Shown: piece after piece, positions 15,344-25,369 of the stretch
Position numbering within the stretch: the first letter of the stretch is position 1
Layout: every line of letters begins with the position of its first letter
Source of the DNA: Blastococcus sp. CT_GayMR19
Lineage (GTDB): Bacteria > Actinomycetota > Actinomycetes > Mycobacteriales > Geodermatophilaceae
Direction of reading: 5' to 3'
Assembly (NCBI RefSeq): GCF_004570385.1
Contig: NZ_SPQL01000008.1
Location: 162,667 to 226,666, forward strand
Length of the DNA: 64,000 bases
Notes under the pieces: model-generated
The model's database searches: none
Seen by the model: only the letters and a program-made list of their open reading frames with translations
What the model was told of the DNA's origin: nothing
Made by a program: the position numbers and the translations under genes

Positions 15344-16372
15344 TCACAAAGGCAGTACCGGCGCCGAGACCGAACGCGTTCCGCCCATCCACCCGGGCAG
15401 GAGCAGCATCTTCACGCCCGCTCCCCCGGTGACGACGACGTGCACGTCCGCCGCGGAGGCGGCCACCGTCAACCCGCCGAGCGCATCGGCCGCCACCAGA
15501 CCGGCCGCACCCGATCTCAGCAGCGCGCTCCCCCGCTCGAACAGGAATCCCGCGATCCGCTCGGTGTCCCATCCGCGCTGCGCGGTGTAGGCCGCCAGCT
15601 CCGGCGGCATCAGCAGGAACTGCTCACCCAGGCGGGCCCGGCGCGGATCGCCCGCGGCCAGGGCCACCCCGGCCATCGCCGCCGCGGCCGGCGCCAGGAC
15701 GTCCGGCACGTCGCGGTAGCCCTCGGCCGGCAGCACCTCCACCACGCTCCCGGCCCCCACCACGGTCACGGCGTCCGCGTCCGCCGCGAACCCCCGCCGG
15801 ACGGCGAGCGAGGGCAGCGGCCCGCCGGGGACCTCCGCCGTGCAGCATGTGTACTTCGCCGGCGAGCCGATGGTCGCCATGTCGGTCAGGCCCGCCGTCG
15901 CGCCGCCGATCCCGGCCAGCGCCAGCGAGACGGCCCGGCCCGCGCACGCGTTGGCCCGGTTGCCGGTGCCCAGCCCACCGGCACCCGATGTCAGGCCCGC
16001 CCGCGCCGCGACCGGACCGTGCACCAGCACCGCCACCGCCGGCGCACCGGTCGTCGTCGCGATGCCGAGCAGGTTGAACGCGTCGTCCAGCGCCGCCCGG
16101 CAAGCGGCCACCACCACCGGCAGCTGCACCGGCCGGCAGCCGGCCAGCACCGCGTACCAGCCGACGGCGCCCACCGTCAGCTCGCCGAACAGCGGCGGCA
16201 CGAGTCCGAGCACCGCGTCCGGAGCACGGACGCCGGCCAGCATCGCCGTGAGCCGGCCAGCGGTCGGCGGCACGACCGGCAGCCCGTCCCCGTGCCCGGT
16301 CGCCAGCAGGTCGTCGAGCACCACCGACGGGTCGGCGTCGGCCGCCACGAGAGGCGGGTCCGACGAGGTCAC
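15344..16372 (-). CDS. Conserved protein of unknown function, paralog of 17624-18667
   Basis: 342 aa, cytosolic. Shared motifs with its paralog are a GDGLPVVPPT segment near residue 29, AGCRP..LPVVVAACRAAL, RANACAGRAV, GSPAKYTCC and LAVRRGFA. The pattern is of a conserved enzyme-like fold with several cysteines, but I cannot name the reaction. It is the last gene of the operon: its GTG overlaps the MFS stop by 4 bp (GTGA), and a strong terminator follows. Compared with the paralog it lacks the CGTNCFG cysteine pair, having SGAGGLG there, which suggests divergence after duplication. Confidence 0.65.
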   Translation of the reverse strand: MTSSDPPLVAADADPSVVLDDLLATGHGDGLPVVPPTAGRLTAMLAGVRAPDAVLGLVPPLFGELTVGAVGWYAVLAGCRPVQLPVVVAACRAALDDAFNLLGIATTTGAPAVAVLVHGPVAARAGLTSGAGGLGTGNRANACAGRAVSLALAGIGGATAGLTDMATIGSPAKYTCCTAEVPGGPLPSLAVRRGFAADADAVTVVGAGSVVEVLPAEGYRDVPDVLAPAAAAMAGVALAAGDPRRARLGEQFLLMPPELAAYTAQRGWDTERIAGFLFERGSALLRSGAAGLVAADALGGLTVAASAADVHVVVTGGAGVKMLLLPGWMGGTRSVSAPVLPL

Positions 16373-17623: not shown

Positions 17624-18667
17624 TCACGAGCGCACGGGGACGGGACGCGAGACCGCCGCCGTGGCCCCGAACGACGGGATCCACGCCGAGTGCTTCCCCG
17701 CACCCCCGGCGACCAGGACGTGCAGCATGTCGGGGCCGGTGCTGACCGGGAAGAAGTCGCCGTCGGGCTTCACACCCCAGTCCTCGAACTGGCGGTGGTT
17801 CTCCTCCGACACCTTCGACACCGGCACGCGCGCCCGCTCCCACAACGTCTCTCGCAGCTCGTCCGCCGTCCACCCGTCGCGGTGCAGCGTCGCCGCGTGC
17901 TCCGGCCCGAGCACCAGGAAGTGCGGGCCCTTCACGTACAGGTTGTTGGACCCAGTCTGCGCCATCGTCCCGGCGATGGTCATCAGCAGGCCCTCGCCGG
18001 TCGTGCTGCCGTGGTCGTTGATGTTGTGCGGCCCCTCGCAGGCCGCCACCGTCACCACCGACTCACCCGGCGCGAACCCGCGGCGCACCGACAACGGCTC
18101 GAACGGGCTCTCCTCCTCGTTCTCACCGAAGCACCACGAGTACTTCGCCGGGTTGCCCTGCGTCGACCGGTCCATCGAGCCGGGGCGCGCGCCGCCGATG
18201 TGCGTCGTCACCAGCTGCACCGCCCGCCCGATGACGGCGTTGGCCCGCGTCCCCTGTCCGAAGCAGTTCGTCCCGCAGTTGATCCCCAGGGCGGGGCGCA
18301 CGGGACCGTTGACGATCACCAGCGGCGCGCACGGGTGCGTCGTGGCCAGCACGCCGTGCAGGTTGTACTCCGGCGCGAGCATCGCCCGCACCGCCGCGAG
18401 CACCACCGGCAGGTCGGCGGGCCGGCACCCGGCCATCACGGCGTTGGCCGCGAAGCTCTCCCGCGTCGGCACCAGCCCGGACGGCGGCACCGGCCCCAGC
18501 TCGAGCTCGATGCCCTCGAGCGCGGCCAGCGCCGCCGACACCCGCGCCGGGGTCGGCGGCACCGTGGGCAGCCCGTCGCCCCAGCCCCGCTCCCAGGCGA
18601 CCTCGTGCCAGTTCTCCTCGGTGACGCCCGGCAGCTCGAGCACCTCGGTCGTCCCCCCGGCGGTCAC
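17624..18667 (-). CDS. Conserved protein of unknown function, UGSC-gene neighbour
   Basis: 347 aa, cytosolic. Key segments are GWGDGLPTVPPTPARV (residues 28-43), AGCRPADLPVVLAAVRA, INCGTNCFGQGTRANAVIGRAV (C131 and C135), and GNPAKYSWCFGE (C179). Clustered conserved cysteines and glycine-rich turns suggest a redox or cofactor-binding enzyme, but this is only inference. The GTG overlaps the TGA of the UGSC gene by 4 bp, so it should be translated with the selenoprotein; this start requires ribosomes to pass the TAG. It is a full-length paralog of 15344-16372. Confidence 0.7.
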   Translation of the reverse strand: MTAGGTTEVLELPGVTEENWHEVAWERGWGDGLPTVPPTPARVSAALAALEGIELELGPVPPSGLVPTRESFAANAVMAGCRPADLPVVLAAVRAMLAPEYNLHGVLATTHPCAPLVIVNGPVRPALGINCGTNCFGQGTRANAVIGRAVQLVTTHIGGARPGSMDRSTQGNPAKYSWCFGENEEESPFEPLSVRRGFAPGESVVTVAACEGPHNINDHGSTTGEGLLMTIAGTMAQTGSNNLYVKGPHFLVLGPEHAATLHRDGWTADELRETLWERARVPVSKVSEENHRQFEDWGVKPDGDFFPVSTGPDMLHVLVAGGAGKHSAWIPSFGATAAVSRPVPVRS

Positions 18668-20124
18668 TCGGCCCCCCGCGCCTCGTCGGCCAGCGTCAGC
18701 AGCTCCGCCGCGGCGGTCTCGATCTTCGCGGCCAGCTCCCCCTCGTTCAGCCCGCCCACCGGGTGCGGCACCACGATCAGCCGCGGCGACACCCGCCGGG
18801 CCTTCGCCTGCGCCTCCACCAGCGGCAGGAACGTCGAGGTCACCAGCAGCGGTGCCACGACGCCACGCTTCTCCAGTTCGACCGAGTCGTGGAGACTCCA
18901 CGACGAGCACGAGCCCTAATCACCGACCGCCACCACGACCATCTTGTAGTTCTGCGAGAGCCAGTCGATGGTGTCCTTGTCGGCCGCCGCCGAGGCGTTG
19001 TCCTTGCTGGCGAAGCCCAGGTCCCGCAGGTCCCAGTGCGCCTGCAGCCGCTCCCCCACCCCGCGCAGCAGCTCGGTGGCGTTGGGCTTGGAGTTGGTGA
19101 ACAGCGCGACCTGGGTCCAGTCGGCGGTCCCGCCCGCCCGCACCTCGACGTCGGCGTCGTCCGGCAGCACGCCGAACGTCGGATCGACGATGCGCAGCCC
19201 GCCGCCCGCCGGCCCCCCACCCGCCGGTCTCAGTGCCGCGACGGCGGCCTGGCCCGCAGCTGCCCCGTCGGCGACGACGGACAGCAGCGTCTGGGCGGCG
19301 CCGGCACGCGCGTCACCGGCCACGAACACCGTGGGGACGGCGGTGCGCACGCCGTCCTCGGTCAGGAGACGCTTCTCCGCGTCCGCCGGTAGGCCGTCGA
19401 CCAGCCCGACCGGCCCGCTCCGCCCGACGTACGGGAAGACGCCCTGCACCGGGAGCTCGCGCTCGCCGTCGCCGGTCCGGACCGTGACGCCCTGCAGCAC
19501 GCCGTCGGCGCGCAGCCCGGTCACCATGGCGCCGGTCAGCACCTCGACCCGGTCGGCCGCCGTCAGCCGCTGGTCGCGCTCGGGTGACCAGCGCGGCGTC
19601 CCGGGCACCAGCACCGTCACCGAGGACGCCAGCTCCGCGAGCTCGAGCGCCTCCTCCGCGGTCCACTCGTCGTCCCCGACCACCGCGACCGCCTTGCCCC
19701 GGTAGAGCGGACCGTCGCAGCCGGCGCAGGTCGACAGGCCACGGCCGACCAGCGCCTCCTCGCCGGGCAGCCCGAGGCGCCCGTTGGTCAGCCCGGTCGC
19801 GATCACCACGGCGCCCGCCGTCACCTCGCCGCCGGACGTCTCCAGGCGCGCCGGCGCCCCGGCGTGCACGCGCGTCACCTCGTCGAAGCTCATCGTGACG
19901 CCGGCCGCCTCCGCCCGGGCGACCAGCTCGGAGATCAGCGCCCAGGGCTCCGCGGAGCCGCCCGGCTCCGGGTAGTCGTGCAGCGTGGTCAGGTTGACGA
20001 GCTGACCGCCGGGCGACAGCCGGTCGTAGGCGATCACCCGCCGGCCCGCCTCCGCCGCCACCCGCGCCGCGGTCAGCCCGGCGACACCCCCGCCGACGAC
20101 GGCGATCTCCCATTCGGTGCTCAT
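18664..20124 (-). CDS. Thioredoxin-reductase-like flavoprotein fused to a UGSC (seleno)protein domain; selenocysteine coded by TAG
   Basis: 486 aa if the TAG at 18916-18918 is read as selenocysteine (U403). Residues 1-300 are a thioredoxin-reductase-like FAD domain: VVGGGVAGL at 9-17, redox-active C133-A-G-C136, and the FAD segment VFVAGDARAGAAQ. The second Rossmann motif is degenerate (VVGDDEWTAEEA), so NADPH binding is doubtful. Residues ~310-486 are the UGSC domain (LFTNSKPNA, then AVGD-U403-G-S-C406-SSWSLHD). The frame continues 83 codons past TAG with homologous sequence and ends in a TGA that overlaps the next gene. The ATG overlaps the upstream dehydrogenase stop. The predicted role is selenol/thiol redox chemistry linked to this acyl-CoA operon. 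The alternative is termination giving a 402-aa protein. Confidence 0.85.
18886..18904 (-). promoter_or_regulatory. Candidate bacterial SECIS hairpin
   Basis: In the mRNA, nucleotides 12-30 after the TAG form a perfect 7-bp stem, GTCGTGG / CCACGAC, around the loop AGUCU; A and U at the loop edges may also pair. From memory, the loop bases G20-U21-C22-U23 fall in the same register as in the E. coli fdhF SECIS element, where SelB contacts the loop. The stem also codes the conserved residues SSWSLHD, so protein constraint may explain part of it. Confidence 0.55.
18916..18918 (-). other. In-frame TAG at the selenocysteine position of the UGSC motif
   Basis: The codons read GTC GGT GAT TAG GGC TCG TGC TCG: V-G-D-(TAG)-G-S-C-S. 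The amber codon sits exactly where family members have UGA (Sec). UAG-directed selenocysteine has been reported in Geodermatophilus and Blastococcus (Mukai and colleagues, 2016). At least seven other genes in this window end in TAG. Confidence 0.8.
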
Positions 20125-21200
20125 GCGTTGCCCAGTCCCGTCGAGATCCGTGGCCAGAGCTCGTCCGCGCCGGCCTCCGCCAGCTGGCGGCCGAGCTCGC
20201 GGCTCCAGTAGCGCTCGCTGCCGAACTCGTCCCGCCAGGACCACAGCCGCCGGCTGAGCTGGCCGAGCTCGTACTCCTTGGTCATCCCGATCGCCCCGTG
20301 TGCCTGATGGGAGGCGCGCGCCGCGATCGTCGCCGCCTCGCTCGCCGCCGCCTTGGCCGCGGCGACGTCGAAGAAGCCCGGCTCCGGCCGGGCGTTCAGC
20401 GTGGCCACCTCGGTCGCCAGCCCGGCCATCTGCGCCTCCTCGGCGATCGTCACGAGGTGAGTCTGCACCGCCTGGAACCGGGCGATCGGACGGCCGAACT
20501 GGTGCCGCTCCCCGGTGTACCGGACGGTCAGCTCGCTCACCCGCGCCAGTGCCCCGGAGATCAGTGCGGCCCGGCTCAGCGCACCCCGCAGCCGCAGCGC
20601 ATCGCCGGTCACGCCGGCGGGGGCGACCCCCACGGCGTCGTCGGGCAGTCCGGCGTCGGTCCACTCCAGGGTGTCCCGCGGCTCGGCGGCCAGGTTGCGG
20701 CCCCCGGTCACGCCCGCCGACGCGACCGGCGCGGACACCACGTACCGGTCGCCGCCGGCGTCGGCCAGCAGCGCGACCCGCTCACTGCGGCCGCCCCACG
20801 GCACCCGCTGCACCCGCGCGGTCAGCCGCCAGGCGCCCGGCCCGCCGGCGAGCTCGACGGCGTCCCCGGGCCGGCCGACCGCCACCGAGAGCGGGCCCTC
20901 CGGGAGCTCCAGGCCCGCCGCGGCCAGCAGCCAGCCGCCCAGCAGACCGGTCTCCGCCAGGGGCACCGGCGCGGCGAAGCGCCCGGCCACGGTGAGCAGC
21001 GCGCACGCGTCGGCGATGTCGCCCCCGGACCCGCCGGCCTCCTCGGGCACCGACACGTACGGGAAGCCGGACTCGGCGAGCGCCGACCAGAGCCGCTCGC
21101 TCCACCCGGTCGCCTCGGCGGCGACGACGTCCTCGGGGGTGCACAGATCGCGGAAGAGGCCGGTGGCGACGTCGGTCAGCATCGCGCGGTCGTCGCTCAT
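20121..21200 (-). CDS. Acyl-CoA dehydrogenase, small subunit type
   Basis: 359 aa. The C-terminal four-helix FAD domain is clear (RYTGERHQFGRPIARFQAVQ and HQAHGAIGMTKEYEL); the N-terminal half is divergent and shortened, as in the smaller partner of two-subunit acyl-CoA dehydrogenases such as the FadE28/FadE29 type. It overlaps the larger partner by 4 bp (ATGA), which supports a heteromeric enzyme. The predicted role is introducing the alpha-beta double bond in a CoA thioester. The operon then runs directly into the thioredoxin-reductase/UGSC gene, again with ATGA. Confidence 0.85.
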   Translation of the reverse strand: MSDDRAMLTDVATGLFRDLCTPEDVVAAEATGWSERLWSALAESGFPYVSVPEEAGGSGGDIADACALLTVAGRFAAPVPLAETGLLGGWLLAAAGLELPEGPLSVAVGRPGDAVELAGGPGAWRLTARVQRVPWGGRSERVALLADAGGDRYVVSAPVASAGVTGGRNLAAEPRDTLEWTDAGLPDDAVGVAPAGVTGDALRLRGALSRAALISGALARVSELTVRYTGERHQFGRPIARFQAVQTHLVTIAEEAQMAGLATEVATLNARPEPGFFDVAAAKAAASEAATIAARASHQAHGAIGMTKEYELGQLSRRLWSWRDEFGSERYWSRELGRQLAEAGADELWPRISTGLGNA

Positions 21201-22336
21201 GCCGAGAGCCCCTTCGCCGCCACCGAGCGCAGGATCTCCGTCGTCCCGCCCTGCAGCGTGTACTTCGGCGACGTGAGCACCGCCTCGGCGAGCAGCTCGC
21301 CGAACAGCGACCCCGAGCCCTGGTCGAGCTCGGTCTCGGCCGCGACCCGCAGCGCCTCCACCAGGTCCTGCTCGAACCGGGTCCCGACCTCCTTGACCAG
21401 CGCCGCCTCGATCGCCGGCGCAGCACCGGCGTCCAGCGCCCGGGCGACCGACAGCGACAGCTGGCGGATCGCCCAGAACCGCGCGGCCAGCCGCCCGACG
21501 ACCGTCGCCTCCTCGTCGGAGACACCCGTGCCGGCCTTCTCGCGGAGGAACTCGCGCAGCACCGGGAAGGTCGACAGCCACCGGTCCGGGCCGCTGCGCT
21601 CGTAGGCCAGCTCGCTGGTCACCTGCTGCCAGCCGGACCCGATCTCGCCGAGCACCATGTCGTCGGGCACGAAGACGTCCTCGAGCGCGACCTCGTTGAA
21701 GTGGTGCGAGCCGTCGATGTAGGGGATCGGCGAGATCCGCACCCCGTCGGCGTGCAGGTCGACGATCAGCTGGGAGAGCCCGGCGTGCTTCTTCCCCTCC
21801 TCCATCGGGGAGGTCCGGCAGAGGACGGCGAAGAAGTGGTTGTTGTGCGCCTCGCTGGTCCACACCTTGGTGCCGGTGACGGTCCAGCCGCCCTCGACCC
21901 TGGTCGCGCGGGTGCGGACGGAGGCGAGGTCGGAGCCGGAGTCGGGCTCGCTCATGCCGAGGGAGAAGTAGATCTCCCCCGCCGAGATGCCCGGGAGGAA
22001 CCGCTGCCGCTGCTCCTCGGTGCCGTAGTGCAGCAGGGCCGGGCCGGTCTGCCGGTCGGCGACGAAGTGCGCGCCGACCGGGGCGCCGGCAGCCAGGAGC
22101 TCCTCCGCGACGACGAACCGCTCGACCGCGCTGCGCCCGTGCCCGCCGTACTCGGGCGGGAGCGCCATCCCCACCCACCCGCGGGCGGCGAGCTTCCGCG
22201 AGAACGCCGGGTCGTGCCGGCCGGCGAACCCGAGCGCCGGCCGGTGGTCCGGGGGCAGCTCCGCGGCCAGGAACTCGCGCACCTCGGCACGCAGCGCCGC
22301 CTCGGCGGGGCTGAGCGGGGTGGGACCGAACTGCAT
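21197..22336 (-). CDS. Acyl-CoA dehydrogenase, large subunit type
   Basis: 379 aa with all acyl-CoA dehydrogenase regions: MALPPEYGGHGRS, GMSEPDSGSDLASVRTRA (FAD / substrate loop), GTKVWTSEAHN, and the C-terminal PKYTLQGGTTEILRSVAA. It is close in arrangement and motifs to the large subunit at 49499-50659. Together with the overlapping small subunit it should form a heteromeric dehydrogenase acting on an unidentified acyl-CoA. Electrons would pass to an electron-transfer flavoprotein encoded elsewhere. ATG at 22336; the enoyl-CoA hydratase ends 26 nt upstream. Confidence 0.88.
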   Translation of the reverse strand: MQFGPTPLSPAEAALRAEVREFLAAELPPDHRPALGFAGRHDPAFSRKLAARGWVGMALPPEYGGHGRSAVERFVVAEELLAAGAPVGAHFVADRQTGPALLHYGTEEQRQRFLPGISAGEIYFSLGMSEPDSGSDLASVRTRATRVEGGWTVTGTKVWTSEAHNNHFFAVLCRTSPMEEGKKHAGLSQLIVDLHADGVRISPIPYIDGSHHFNEVALEDVFVPDDMVLGEIGSGWQQVTSELAYERSGPDRWLSTFPVLREFLREKAGTGVSDEEATVVGRLAARFWAIRQLSLSVARALDAGAAPAIEAALVKEVGTRFEQDLVEALRVAAETELDQGSGSLFGELLAEAVLTSPKYTLQGGTTEILRSVAAKGLSA

Positions 22337-22362
22337 GCGGAGCTCCTGGGTCGCCGGGGGGA

Positions 22363-23100
22363 TCAGGCCGTCTCGCGCCGCCGCATGGACCACATCTGGG
22401 TGGCCCGCTCGAAGTGCAGCCCGGCGTCCCAGCCGATCCCGGGCGGGCCGGCCTCGGTACGGAAGGACCGCACCGCCTCGCGGGCGAGCTCGGGGTCCTT
22501 CGCCGCCCGCCCCGCCAGCTCCAGCGCCAGGTCCTCGACCTGGTCGTCCGGCACGGCCTTCCAGGCCAGGCCGATCTCGGCCGCCCGGACGCCGTCGATC
22601 TCCTCGCTGAACAGCCCCATCGCGGCGGTGGCCTCGCGGCCCGCCGTGCGCGAGGAGATGGTGAAGTAACCGCCACCGGGGTGCAGGCCGATCCGGAGGA
22701 AGCCGGCCAGCAGGCGGGCGTTCTCCGCCACCACGCGCAGGTCGGTGGCCAGCGCCAGGTTGATCCCGGCCCCGACGGCCGCCCCGCGGACGGCCGCGAT
22801 CGTCGGCATCGAGAGGCTGCCGACCCGCTTGAAGGCGGTGTAGACCGCGCCGAGCTCCTTGTAGTTCTGGTCCTCGGCCTGGTCCGCGCCCGGGTTCCAG
22901 CGGCGGCGGTCGGCGCCCGAGCAGAACATGCCCCCGGCACCCCGGACCACGGCTGCGCCCACGGCCCGATCGGCGTCCACCTCGTCGCACAGCGCCGACA
23001 GCTGCAGCCCCATCTCCGGGGTCAGCCCGTTCTTCACGTCGGGGTTGTCGACGGTGAAGACGGCGACGCCGCCCTGCTTCTCGAGCGTTATCTGTCCCAC
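22363..23100 (-). CDS. Enoyl-CoA hydratase/isomerase family protein
   Basis: 245 aa, a full crotonase fold. The oxyanion-hole segments are VRGAGGMFCSGADRR and AVRGAAVGAGINLA. The usual catalytic Glu region reads FLRIGLHPGGGYF, lacking the PE pair of true hydratases and more like the PaaG-type isomerase pattern, so isomerase or another crotonase reaction is possible. It is second in the TetR-controlled operon, 52 nt after the CoA ligase. It should act after the paired acyl-CoA dehydrogenases. Confidence 0.82.
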   Translation of the reverse strand: MGQITLEKQGGVAVFTVDNPDVKNGLTPEMGLQLSALCDEVDADRAVGAAVVRGAGGMFCSGADRRRWNPGADQAEDQNYKELGAVYTAFKRVGSLSMPTIAAVRGAAVGAGINLALATDLRVVAENARLLAGFLRIGLHPGGGYFTISSRTAGREATAAMGLFSEEIDGVRAAEIGLAWKAVPDDQVEDLALELAGRAAKDPELAREAVRSFRTEAGPPGIGWDAGLHFERATQMWSMRRRETA

Positions 23101-23152: not shown

Positions 23153-25321
23153 TCATTCGCCGAGCGGAACGCCGCGCCCGCTCGTGCTGACCAGGACGTC
23201 GACGGCGGTGGCACCGCGCCCGCGCGCTGCCACGATGAGCGGGTTGACCTCGAGTTCGGTGAGCCGGTCCCCGCCCGCGACGATGGCCTGGGACAGCCGC
23301 ATCACGGCGTCGACGGCGGCCGGGACGTCGGCCGGCTCGGCACCGCGGAACCCGGCCAGCAGCGGCCACGCGCGCAGGCTGCGCAGCATCGCCCAGGCCC
23401 GCTCGGGGGTGACCGGGGCCAGCCCGGAGGCGATGTCCCGGTAGAGCTCGGTCGTCACACCGCCGAGCCCGACCGTGATCACCGGCGGGAAGCCGTCCCG
23501 CCCGGCGGTGGCGCCGAGGATCAGCTCGGTGCCGGGCGGGATCAGCTCCTGCACCAGCACGCCCTCGACGTCCGGCACGTGGTGCCGCTTCGCGGAGTCG
23601 AGCAGCTCGCGGAAGACCGCCGCGGCCTGCTCCGCCGGGACGCCGACCCGCACCCCCCCGACGTCGCTCTTGTGCGCCAGCTCGCCCGCCGCCAGCTTGA
23701 GCACGCCCGGGCCGGGCAGCGCGGCGACGGCCTCACGGGCCGCCTCGGGGGTGGTGACCAGCGTCGAGGAGGGCTGCGCTATCCCGATCGCGCGCAGCAG
23801 CGCCGACCCGTCGACGACCGGCGCCTGCAGCAGCTCCCGGATCTCCGCGGACGGCGGCGCCGGCGCCGGCGGCAGCGCCGGGACGGTGCCGGGGTGGCGG
23901 GGTGGGGCCATGCGGGCCGCGCACCGGGCGACGTCGCCGACCGAGCCGAAGATGGGGATGCCGGCCTCGCGGAAGACCGCACGGCCCTCGGTGGTGAGTT
24001 CCTGGCCGGCGATCCAGCCGACCAGCAGCGGGACGGGCAGCTTGCCGGCCGTGGCCACCAGGTCCTCGGCCAGCCGGGCGCCGGCGTCGCCGACGACCAT
24101 CGTGACGAACACGGCCACCACGTCGACGGACGGGTCGTCGGCGACCATCCGGCAGACGTCGCCGAAGGCGTGCGCGCCGCGGTTGAACAGCTGGGCGGTC
24201 ACGTCCACCGGGTTGGTGAGCGCCCCGAAGGCCGGGATCAGCGGGCGGAGCCGGTCCTGCGTCGCCGCGGCCAGTTCCGGCATCTCCAGGCCGAGGTCCT
24301 CGCACTGGTCGGCCGCCAGGCTCCCCGCGCCGCCCGAGGTGGTGACGACGGCGACCCGCCGTCCCTCCGACCGCTTGCCGGTGGCCAGCACGGCCGCGAC
24401 CGCCAGCAGCTCGTCGATGTCGTGGACCAGGACGACGCCGTGCTCCTGGGAGGTCAGCACGAACGCGACGTCGTCACCCAGCATCGACCCGGTGTGGCTG
24501 GCCACCGCGCGCCGGCCGGCGCTGGAGCGCCCCGAGCGCAGCACCACGAGGTGCTTGCCCATCTCCCGCGCCCGGCGCGCCAGCGCGGCGTAGGCGACGC
24601 CGTCGTCGGCGGCCTCGACGTAGAGCATGAGCACCCGGACCGCCGGGTCCGCCAGCAGCTCACCGGACACCTGCACCAGGTCGAGGTCGGCCTGGTTGCC
24701 GGTGCTCGCCCACGCGGCCAGCCCGAGGCCCATGTCGGTGGCCAGGTCGAGCACCGACCCGCCGACCGCCCCGCTCTGCCCGACGTAGGCCACCCCGCTG
24801 TCGTGCGCCAGGGGCCGGTCGGCCGCGGCGGTGAAGGTCGCGACGACGCCGGTCGGTGCGTACAGGAAGCCCTGGCAGTTGGGGCCGAGCACGCGCACCC
24901 CGGTCTCGCGGGCCACCGCGGTCAGCCGCTGCTGCAGGGCCACGCCCTCCGGGCCGACCTCGGCGAAACCGGACGCGTAGACGACGGCGGCCTTCGCCCC
25001 GACCGCCGCCGCCTGCCGGATGGCGTCCTCGACCCGCTCCGCGGCGACCAGCACGAGCACCAGGTCGACCGGGCCGGGCACGTCGGCCAGCGTCGGGTAG
25101 CACTTCTGCCCGACCAGCTCCTGGTAGTTCGGGTTGACCGGGTAGATGCCGCCCGCGTAGCCGTGCTCGACGAGGTAGCGCAGCGGCCGCGCCATCAGGT
25201 TCTCCGAGCGACCCGAGATCCCGAGCAACGCGATGCCGCGCGGCCGCAGCAGCGCCTGCAGGCCGTCGGGCCGGGCCCCCTGCGGCGGTTCCGGGGCGGA
25301 TCCCGACGGCGGCTCGGTCAT
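23153..25321 (-). CDS. Acetate--CoA ligase family (ADP-forming acyl-CoA synthetase, fused alpha-beta)
   Basis: 722 aa. The N-terminal part (~20-480) is the CoA-binding / succinyl-CoA-ligase-like alpha region (GIALLGISGRSENLMARPL, VLGPNCQGF, YVGQSGAVGGSVLDL, SHTGSM with the phospho-His). The C-terminal part (~500-722) is an ATP-grasp beta region (KLAAGELAHKSDVGGVRVGV, TELEVNPLIV). It makes a CoA thioester from a carboxylic acid with ATP. As first gene of the operon it probably supplies the acyl-CoA for the dehydrogenases downstream. ATG at 25321; the TetR operator is 48 bp upstream. Confidence 0.87.
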   Translation of the reverse strand: MTEPPSGSAPEPPQGARPDGLQALLRPRGIALLGISGRSENLMARPLRYLVEHGYAGGIYPVNPNYQELVGQKCYPTLADVPGPVDLVLVLVAAERVEDAIRQAAAVGAKAAVVYASGFAEVGPEGVALQQRLTAVARETGVRVLGPNCQGFLYAPTGVVATFTAAADRPLAHDSGVAYVGQSGAVGGSVLDLATDMGLGLAAWASTGNQADLDLVQVSGELLADPAVRVLMLYVEAADDGVAYAALARRAREMGKHLVVLRSGRSSAGRRAVASHTGSMLGDDVAFVLTSQEHGVVLVHDIDELLAVAAVLATGKRSEGRRVAVVTTSGGAGSLAADQCEDLGLEMPELAAATQDRLRPLIPAFGALTNPVDVTAQLFNRGAHAFGDVCRMVADDPSVDVVAVFVTMVVGDAGARLAEDLVATAGKLPVPLLVGWIAGQELTTEGRAVFREAGIPIFGSVGDVARCAARMAPPRHPGTVPALPPAPAPPSAEIRELLQAPVVDGSALLRAIGIAQPSSTLVTTPEAAREAVAALPGPGVLKLAAGELAHKSDVGGVRVGVPAEQAAAVFRELLDSAKRHHVPDVEGVLVQELIPPGTELILGATAGRDGFPPVITVGLGGVTTELYRDIASGLAPVTPERAWAMLRSLRAWPLLAGFRGAEPADVPAAVDAVMRLSQAIVAGGDRLTELEVNPLIVAARGRGATAVDVLVSTSGRGVPLGE

Positions 25322-25363
25322 CGGGCAGCGCCTTCCGGGAGGGCGACGGGAGGGGTCCCCAGC

Positions 25364-25369
25364 AGCTAA
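25364..25369 (-). promoter_or_regulatory. Putative -10 box of the acyl-CoA / UGSC operon
   Basis: TTAGCT on the minus strand, 17 nt after a perfect TTGACA (-35, 25387-25392) that forms one arm of the palindromic operator. A repressor bound there would block this promoter. Confidence 0.45.

Follow-up and report, generated by a model that had tools for sequence, protein, structure and literature searches.

A flavoprotein reductase-UGSC fusion encoded on the minus strand at 18664..20124 of the window (the whole stretch of 64,000 nucleotides analysed here) very likely contains selenocysteine (Sec) encoded by UAG, with the tRNA-Sec of the same genome (anticodon CUA) as its decoder. We put the probability of this reading at about 0.93, because an in-frame TAG stands at the predicted active site and the anticodon of the tRNA-Sec matches UAG. 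UAG-coded selenocysteine in Geodermatophilaceae was reportedly described by Mukai et al. in 2016.

By translation, the minus-strand frame opens with ATG and comprises 402 codons, the TAG (18916-18918), 83 codons and TGA, with this TAG as the single internal stop, which gives a product of 486 residues with UAG as the predicted Sec403. The local reading is VVVAVGD-TAG-GSCSSWSLHDSVE. Residues 312-477 (18694..19191, minus strand), which include Sec403 and C406, match the Pfam domain UGSC (PF24696) with 123.8 bits against a cut-off of 25. The match spans the TAG, and the pieces before and after it hit PF24696 separately with 46.8 and 55.0 bits; since they match the two halves of the model, the TAG takes the position of the U of UGSC. 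The earlier note had placed the TAG exactly there and assigned the following 83 codons to the rest of the UGSC domain, and it was right on both points as well as on the coordinates and the residue number 403; the strand, which it did not give, is minus. The score against the NCBIfam equivalog UGSC_fam (NF041046), 107.9 bits, is below the cut-off of 125, and therefore the window protein belongs to a diverged UGSC branch and not to that equivalog. It is the product of the sole UGSC gene found in the host genome. Residues 6-294 (19243..20109, minus strand) form a thioredoxin reductase (TrxR)-like flavoprotein domain with degenerate NADPH motifs, in which the Pyr_redox_2 match covers residues 6-273, and the score against thioredoxin-disulfide reductase (TIGR01292) is 180.7 bits, below the equivalog cut-off of 343.45. 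In the alignment the NADPH-binding motifs of TIGR01292 are absent: where the low-molecular-weight thioredoxin reductase has GGDSA and HRR, the usual NADPH-binding motifs of these enzymes, the window protein has GDDEWTA and VPG, and it differs further in the added UGSC domain. This loss of the usual NADPH-binding motifs refines the description 'thioredoxin-reductase-like' given earlier. A candidate redox dithiol, C133-A-G-C136 (19717..19728, minus strand), lies in this half, and both cysteines are conserved in 18/18 aligned fused proteins. The predicted structure model of the fused protein is middling (mean pLDDT 69.7).

The fused type was found as 19 genes in 19 genomes among the 112 Geodermatophilaceae genomes searched, and Blastococcus saxobsidens DD2 carries such a gene. 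Because all 19 genes of this type carry one TAG, which is at the predicted Sec codon in 19/19, the TAG in the window is not there by chance. This count leaves out a locus in genome G108, which scores similarly to the fused genes but has no stop and lacks the motif V(G/A)D-TAG-GSC. Leaving the window aside, 17 of the 18 fetched homologs read V(G/A)D-TAG-GSC followed by exactly 83 codons to TGA, and the remaining one (L374, genome G104) reads VAAGD-TAG-GSC. The dN/dS ratio after the TAG is 0.32-0.70 in 18/18 homologs, against 0.19-0.84 for the 60 codons before it, and 12 of the 18 have a lower dN behind the TAG than in front of it. The codons on its two sides are therefore under roughly equal constraint.

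A SECIS-like hairpin of 8 bp with an apical GU and the loop GUC (18886..18904, minus strand) starts 11 nt after the TAG and is supported by conservation and by synonymous constraint. In fdhF of E. coli the spacing is similar and the apex reads GGUCU. The alignment, from which identical sequences were dropped beforehand, holds 28 distinct sequences of UGSC (11) and FDH-N (17) genes, 27 with TAG and one with TGA; it is gapless and 98.7% of its 224 cells pair, while sliding the partner lowers pairing to 33.0-51.3%. Changes on both sides occur in seven of the eight pairs (a count reached by 13/500 shuffles), the covariation score was reached by 0/500 shuffles and the number of further pair types by 248/500; the apical-loop G23 and U24 are invariant in 28/28. 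Register and pairing are common to the UGSC and the formate dehydrogenase genes, and much of the covariation lies between these two genes, which are unrelated but keep one register, as would be expected of a SelB signal common to both. At codons +1 to +13 synonymous variability is 0.0175, against 0.138 for 94 others, and values this low came up in 4 of 20000 random draws; when 95 contiguous stretches were ranked, those beginning at +1, +2 and +3 had the three lowest values. For its composition, the 54-nt stretch that follows the TAG has no unusual folding energy (z -0.60 against shuffles), and when consensus folding was scanned along the gene, the 57 nt behind the TAG ranked fourth of 266 windows, the three that fold lower starting 18-24 nt before the TAG. 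The case for the hairpin thus rests on conservation.

The host genome (4.57 Mb in 42 contigs, 100% complete by estimate) contains one selA (420.8 bits), one selB (288.4 bits) and one selD (385.6 bits), all over the family cut-offs, in a single cluster with the tRNA-Sec gene, which is located between selD and selA. The tRNA-Sec matches its model over the whole length with 66.7 bits against a cut-off of 47, and its anticodon loop CUCUAAA gives the anticodon CUA. A second match over the cut-off of RF01852 in this genome is a tRNA-Ser with anticodon UGA. TAG also occupies the Sec site of the host FDH-N (ENQARI-TAG-HSSTVPGLG). The search for selA, selB, selD and a tRNA-Sec with anticodon CUA proposed in the earlier note therefore found the complete set, with CUA and not UCA alone, and these genes together with the TAG in the host FDH-N support its interpretation of a UAG-coded Sec. 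As a separate observation, 6 of the 36 frames picked by base composition in positions 1-64000 terminate in TAG, and UAG is therefore probably also an ordinary stop here.

Other readings of the TAG have to be considered. If it were a true stop, the product would be a 402-residue flavoprotein and the last 83 codons a remnant. The public homologs of the window protein could be taken in this sense: there are 971, and among the 120 matches listed, which include the window's own entry, query coverage is at most 83%, lengths are 320-414 residues and none extends past the TAG. However, gene callers end at TAG whatever the truth; many of the listed homologs are annotated as thioredoxin reductase (NADPH), and these public entries lack the selenoprotein part. 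Against a true stop are also the exactly 83 downstream codons in 17/17 homologs, as constrained as the codons before them, the TAG itself in 19/19 genes, and the presence of both a conserved hairpin and a tRNA-Sec with CUA, so that we consider termination as the full explanation very improbable, although some 402-residue protein, truncated at the TAG, may be made alongside the selenoprotein.

It is still less probable, to a degree that leaves it hardly credible, that UAG is read through in another way, either as pyrrolysine or by a near-cognate tRNA inserting a standard residue. ARAGORN does label the CUA tRNA as tRNA-Pyl (cta), but we infer that this label follows from the anticodon alone, while the tRNA-Sec model is matched along the full RNA with 66.7 bits, the gene lies beside selA, and other homologs have Cys (TGC) at the same place. 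A sequencing or assembly error is already refuted, since the TAG is common to 19/19 genes of the type in as many genomes. UAG decoded as Sec is the reading we retain.

The relation between codon and anticodon was followed through the family. At a threshold of E 1e-9 or better, tRNA-Sec was found in 108 of the 112 Geodermatophilaceae genomes, with 110 genes in which the anticodon was read in every case: 102 are CUA (in 101 genomes) and eight are UCA. Seven of the UCA genes are the only tRNA-Sec gene of their genome, in fragmented assemblies from three genera (g5, g6 and g7), and the eighth is a second gene in Geodermatophilus sp. LHW52908 (G058). Completeness is 72-82% in the four genomes that gave no match. 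UGSC was matched in 54/112 genomes with 95 matches, of which 72 contain one in-frame TAG and 23 are uninterrupted, and none of the 95 is interrupted by TGA. FDH-N was matched in 100/112 genomes, and the Sec site was read in 30 fetched loci, 29 of them with TAG. One partial FDH-N match (L341, contig C12 of G079, whose tRNA-Sec is CUA) has no Sec-site motif and a TGA elsewhere; it is possibly a decayed gene, and its TGA counts as a point against the UAG-Sec reading. Among the UCA-type genera, FDH matches with one TGA each were seen in G071, G073 and G074; in the two of these matches tried, the TGA could not be placed at the Sec residue, and G071 itself gave no tRNA-Sec match.

In a sample of the class comprising 394 genomes, 23 have UGSC, with TAG only in G000 and G023, both Geodermatophilaceae, and TGA only in G197, which is outside the family. 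There the sequence is EALAD-TGA-GSCTSCSVHDIADLERR, where the family counterpart has EALAD-TAG-GSCTSCSVHDIADLERR, and the tRNA-Sec of G197 is UCA; because G197 pairs TGA with UCA at the same UGSC site, codon and anticodon differ together. The UGSC codon was searched for in 57 loci (30 from the family and 27 from the class) and obtained for 48, with none for nine: 18 TAG, 28 TGC, one TGA and one false motif hit. Thus all three codons that the earlier note had suggested looking for in homologs occur at the U site. A pattern scan for CUA tRNA-Sec in 84,980 species genomes gave 101 stretches, namely 88 Geodermatophilaceae-like tRNA-Sec, one cut copy and 12 others, among which we judged one (L179) to be a real tRNA-Sec. 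Another CUA tRNA, in an Erysipelotrichaceae MAG (L155, G505:C27:13498-13586), scores 41.8 bits to tRNA-Sec, below the cut-off, lies beside another weak match and is perhaps a suppressor-type tRNA. Apart from these, plasmids of Tsukamurella and Arthrobacter (L378 and L379), one of which is predicted to be conjugative, carry selA-selB-selD clusters and a tRNA-Sec-like sequence with anticodon UCA beside FDH genes.

Geodermatophilus sp. LHW52908 has a CUA tRNA-Sec with selA, selB and selD on contig C11, and TAG in both FDH-N and UGSC. Its second tRNA-Sec, on contig C17 (L084, 1169-1263), has the anticodon UCA, scores 81.8 bits and lies about 300 bases from an AhpD-like gene (1579-2157) reading NRCFY-TGA-MESHAEF, where a GU-apex hairpin follows the TGA; with the TGA read through, the product is over the cut-off of TIGR01926 and below that of the (seleno)protein family NF041238. 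The two tRNA-Sec genes are 65% identical. The first 6 kb of C17 have a GC content of 0.62-0.66 and differing tetranucleotides (0.87), whereas the remainder looks native (0.95-0.99), and selA, selB and selD were looked for on C17 and not found. This stretch is likely a horizontally acquired cassette served by the native SelA and SelB, the alternative being that the start of C17 is a chimeric contig end. On reading, transposase-like frames were seen flanking the low-GC stretch.

The one tRNA-Sec from elsewhere that we judged real in the scan belongs to a Coriobacteriia MAG (G504; loci L179 and L393). It has the anticodon CUA, scores 64.2 bits, shares 63-69% identity with the nine other tRNAs in the comparison, and lies on a contig that also carries homologs of selA, selB and selD. 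TAGs are found in GrdA and GrdB genes of this MAG (L179 2448-2450; L393 5945-5947 and 10448-10450), at what are presumably the Sec positions of the two proteins: GrdA reads SSTECFV-TAG-TSAGAMDLE and, read through, matches PF04723 with 266.7 bits, and in GrdB, which reads LTST-TAG-GTCTRCG, 86 codons come after the TAG. When the GrdA sequence is folded singly, the hairpin behind its TAG is weak. The MAG is apparently an independent case of UAG-selenocysteine. Taking both genomes together, we regard as an evenly balanced proposition that the identity of the Sec codon is modular and mobile, with LHW52908 reading UAG by its native CUA tRNA in FDH and UGSC and UGA by an acquired UCA tRNA with the AhpD-like gene, and with a second origin of UAG-Sec in GrdA and GrdB of the Coriobacteriia.

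As to the mechanism, SerRS and SelA would make Sec-tRNA-Sec(CUA), and SelB, bound to the hairpin 11 nt downstream, would bring it to the UAG and outcompete release factor 1, while UAGs without such a hairpin would remain stop codons. At the protein level, where we draw on the domains, the neighbouring genes and the middling model, electrons may pass from the flavin to the C133/C136 dithiol and on to Sec403/C406 of the UGSC domain; the usual NADPH route is probably not their source. The selenoprotein gene has its stop codon overlapped by a partner gene (17624..18667, minus strand), a homolog of which was found in 76 of the 79 UGSC-bearing sequences searched, window included. The searches of Pfam and NCBIfam gave no match for the partner gene, nor a family for its paralog with 37% identity (15344..16369, minus strand). 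Upstream are acyl-CoA dehydrogenases of the small-subunit type (20121..21251, minus strand) and the large-subunit type (21248..22405, minus strand), followed on the same strand by an enoyl-CoA hydratase/isomerase family protein (22363..23100) and a protein of the ADP-forming acyl-CoA ligase type (23153..25369). Together with the partner protein, the UGSC domain might reduce a substrate of this neighbouring acyl-CoA pathway.

The Sec-G-x-C region of one GrdB (glycine reductase) sequence aligns with UGSC over 58 columns with 28% identity, while the remaining sequence of GrdB is absent from the window protein; judged from this alignment, the UGSC domain is possibly a distant relative of the GrdB Sec region. 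The UGSC motif is shared with the UGSC selenoproteins of the GOS data, for which a passage of PMC2398784 also notes a fusion. The partner there is the domain Unknown_1, whereas the window gene has a TrxR-like flavoprotein in this role and UAG as the codon; a thioredoxin-like fold was thought likely there, while the model of the window protein looks flavodoxin- or Rossmann-like.

UAG-coded Sec with UGSC and FDH selenoproteins is a rare code change that is already in print for Geodermatophilaceae. The section of the Secmarker paper (PMC5330540) on this family describes the CUA tRNA-Sec, credits the UAG-containing FDH and UGSC selenoproteins to Mukai et al. 2016 and adds AhpC; the present gene agrees with it in family, anticodon and the use of UAG in UGSC-motif and FDH selenoproteins, and the TrxR-UGSC fusion is not mentioned in that section. 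A passage of PMC5133445 likewise gives Sec as UAG in Blastococcus, and a passage of PMC10778597 mentions, for some species, a recoding of UAG, of UAA and of ten sense codons. Neither the fused architecture nor the family-wide boundary, the possible two-codon genome or the Coriobacteriia case turned up in the parts of the literature searched. The window gene provides sequence support for a natural recoding that is hidden by standard annotation. The Geodermatophilaceae show a clean switch of codon and anticodon, with UCA alone in three genera and CUA in the rest, LHW52908 may use both codons, and the apparently independent Coriobacteriia case lies in another bacterial class. With such a switch, a possible two-codon genome and an apparently independent case at hand, how a recoded codon changes its identity becomes directly testable.
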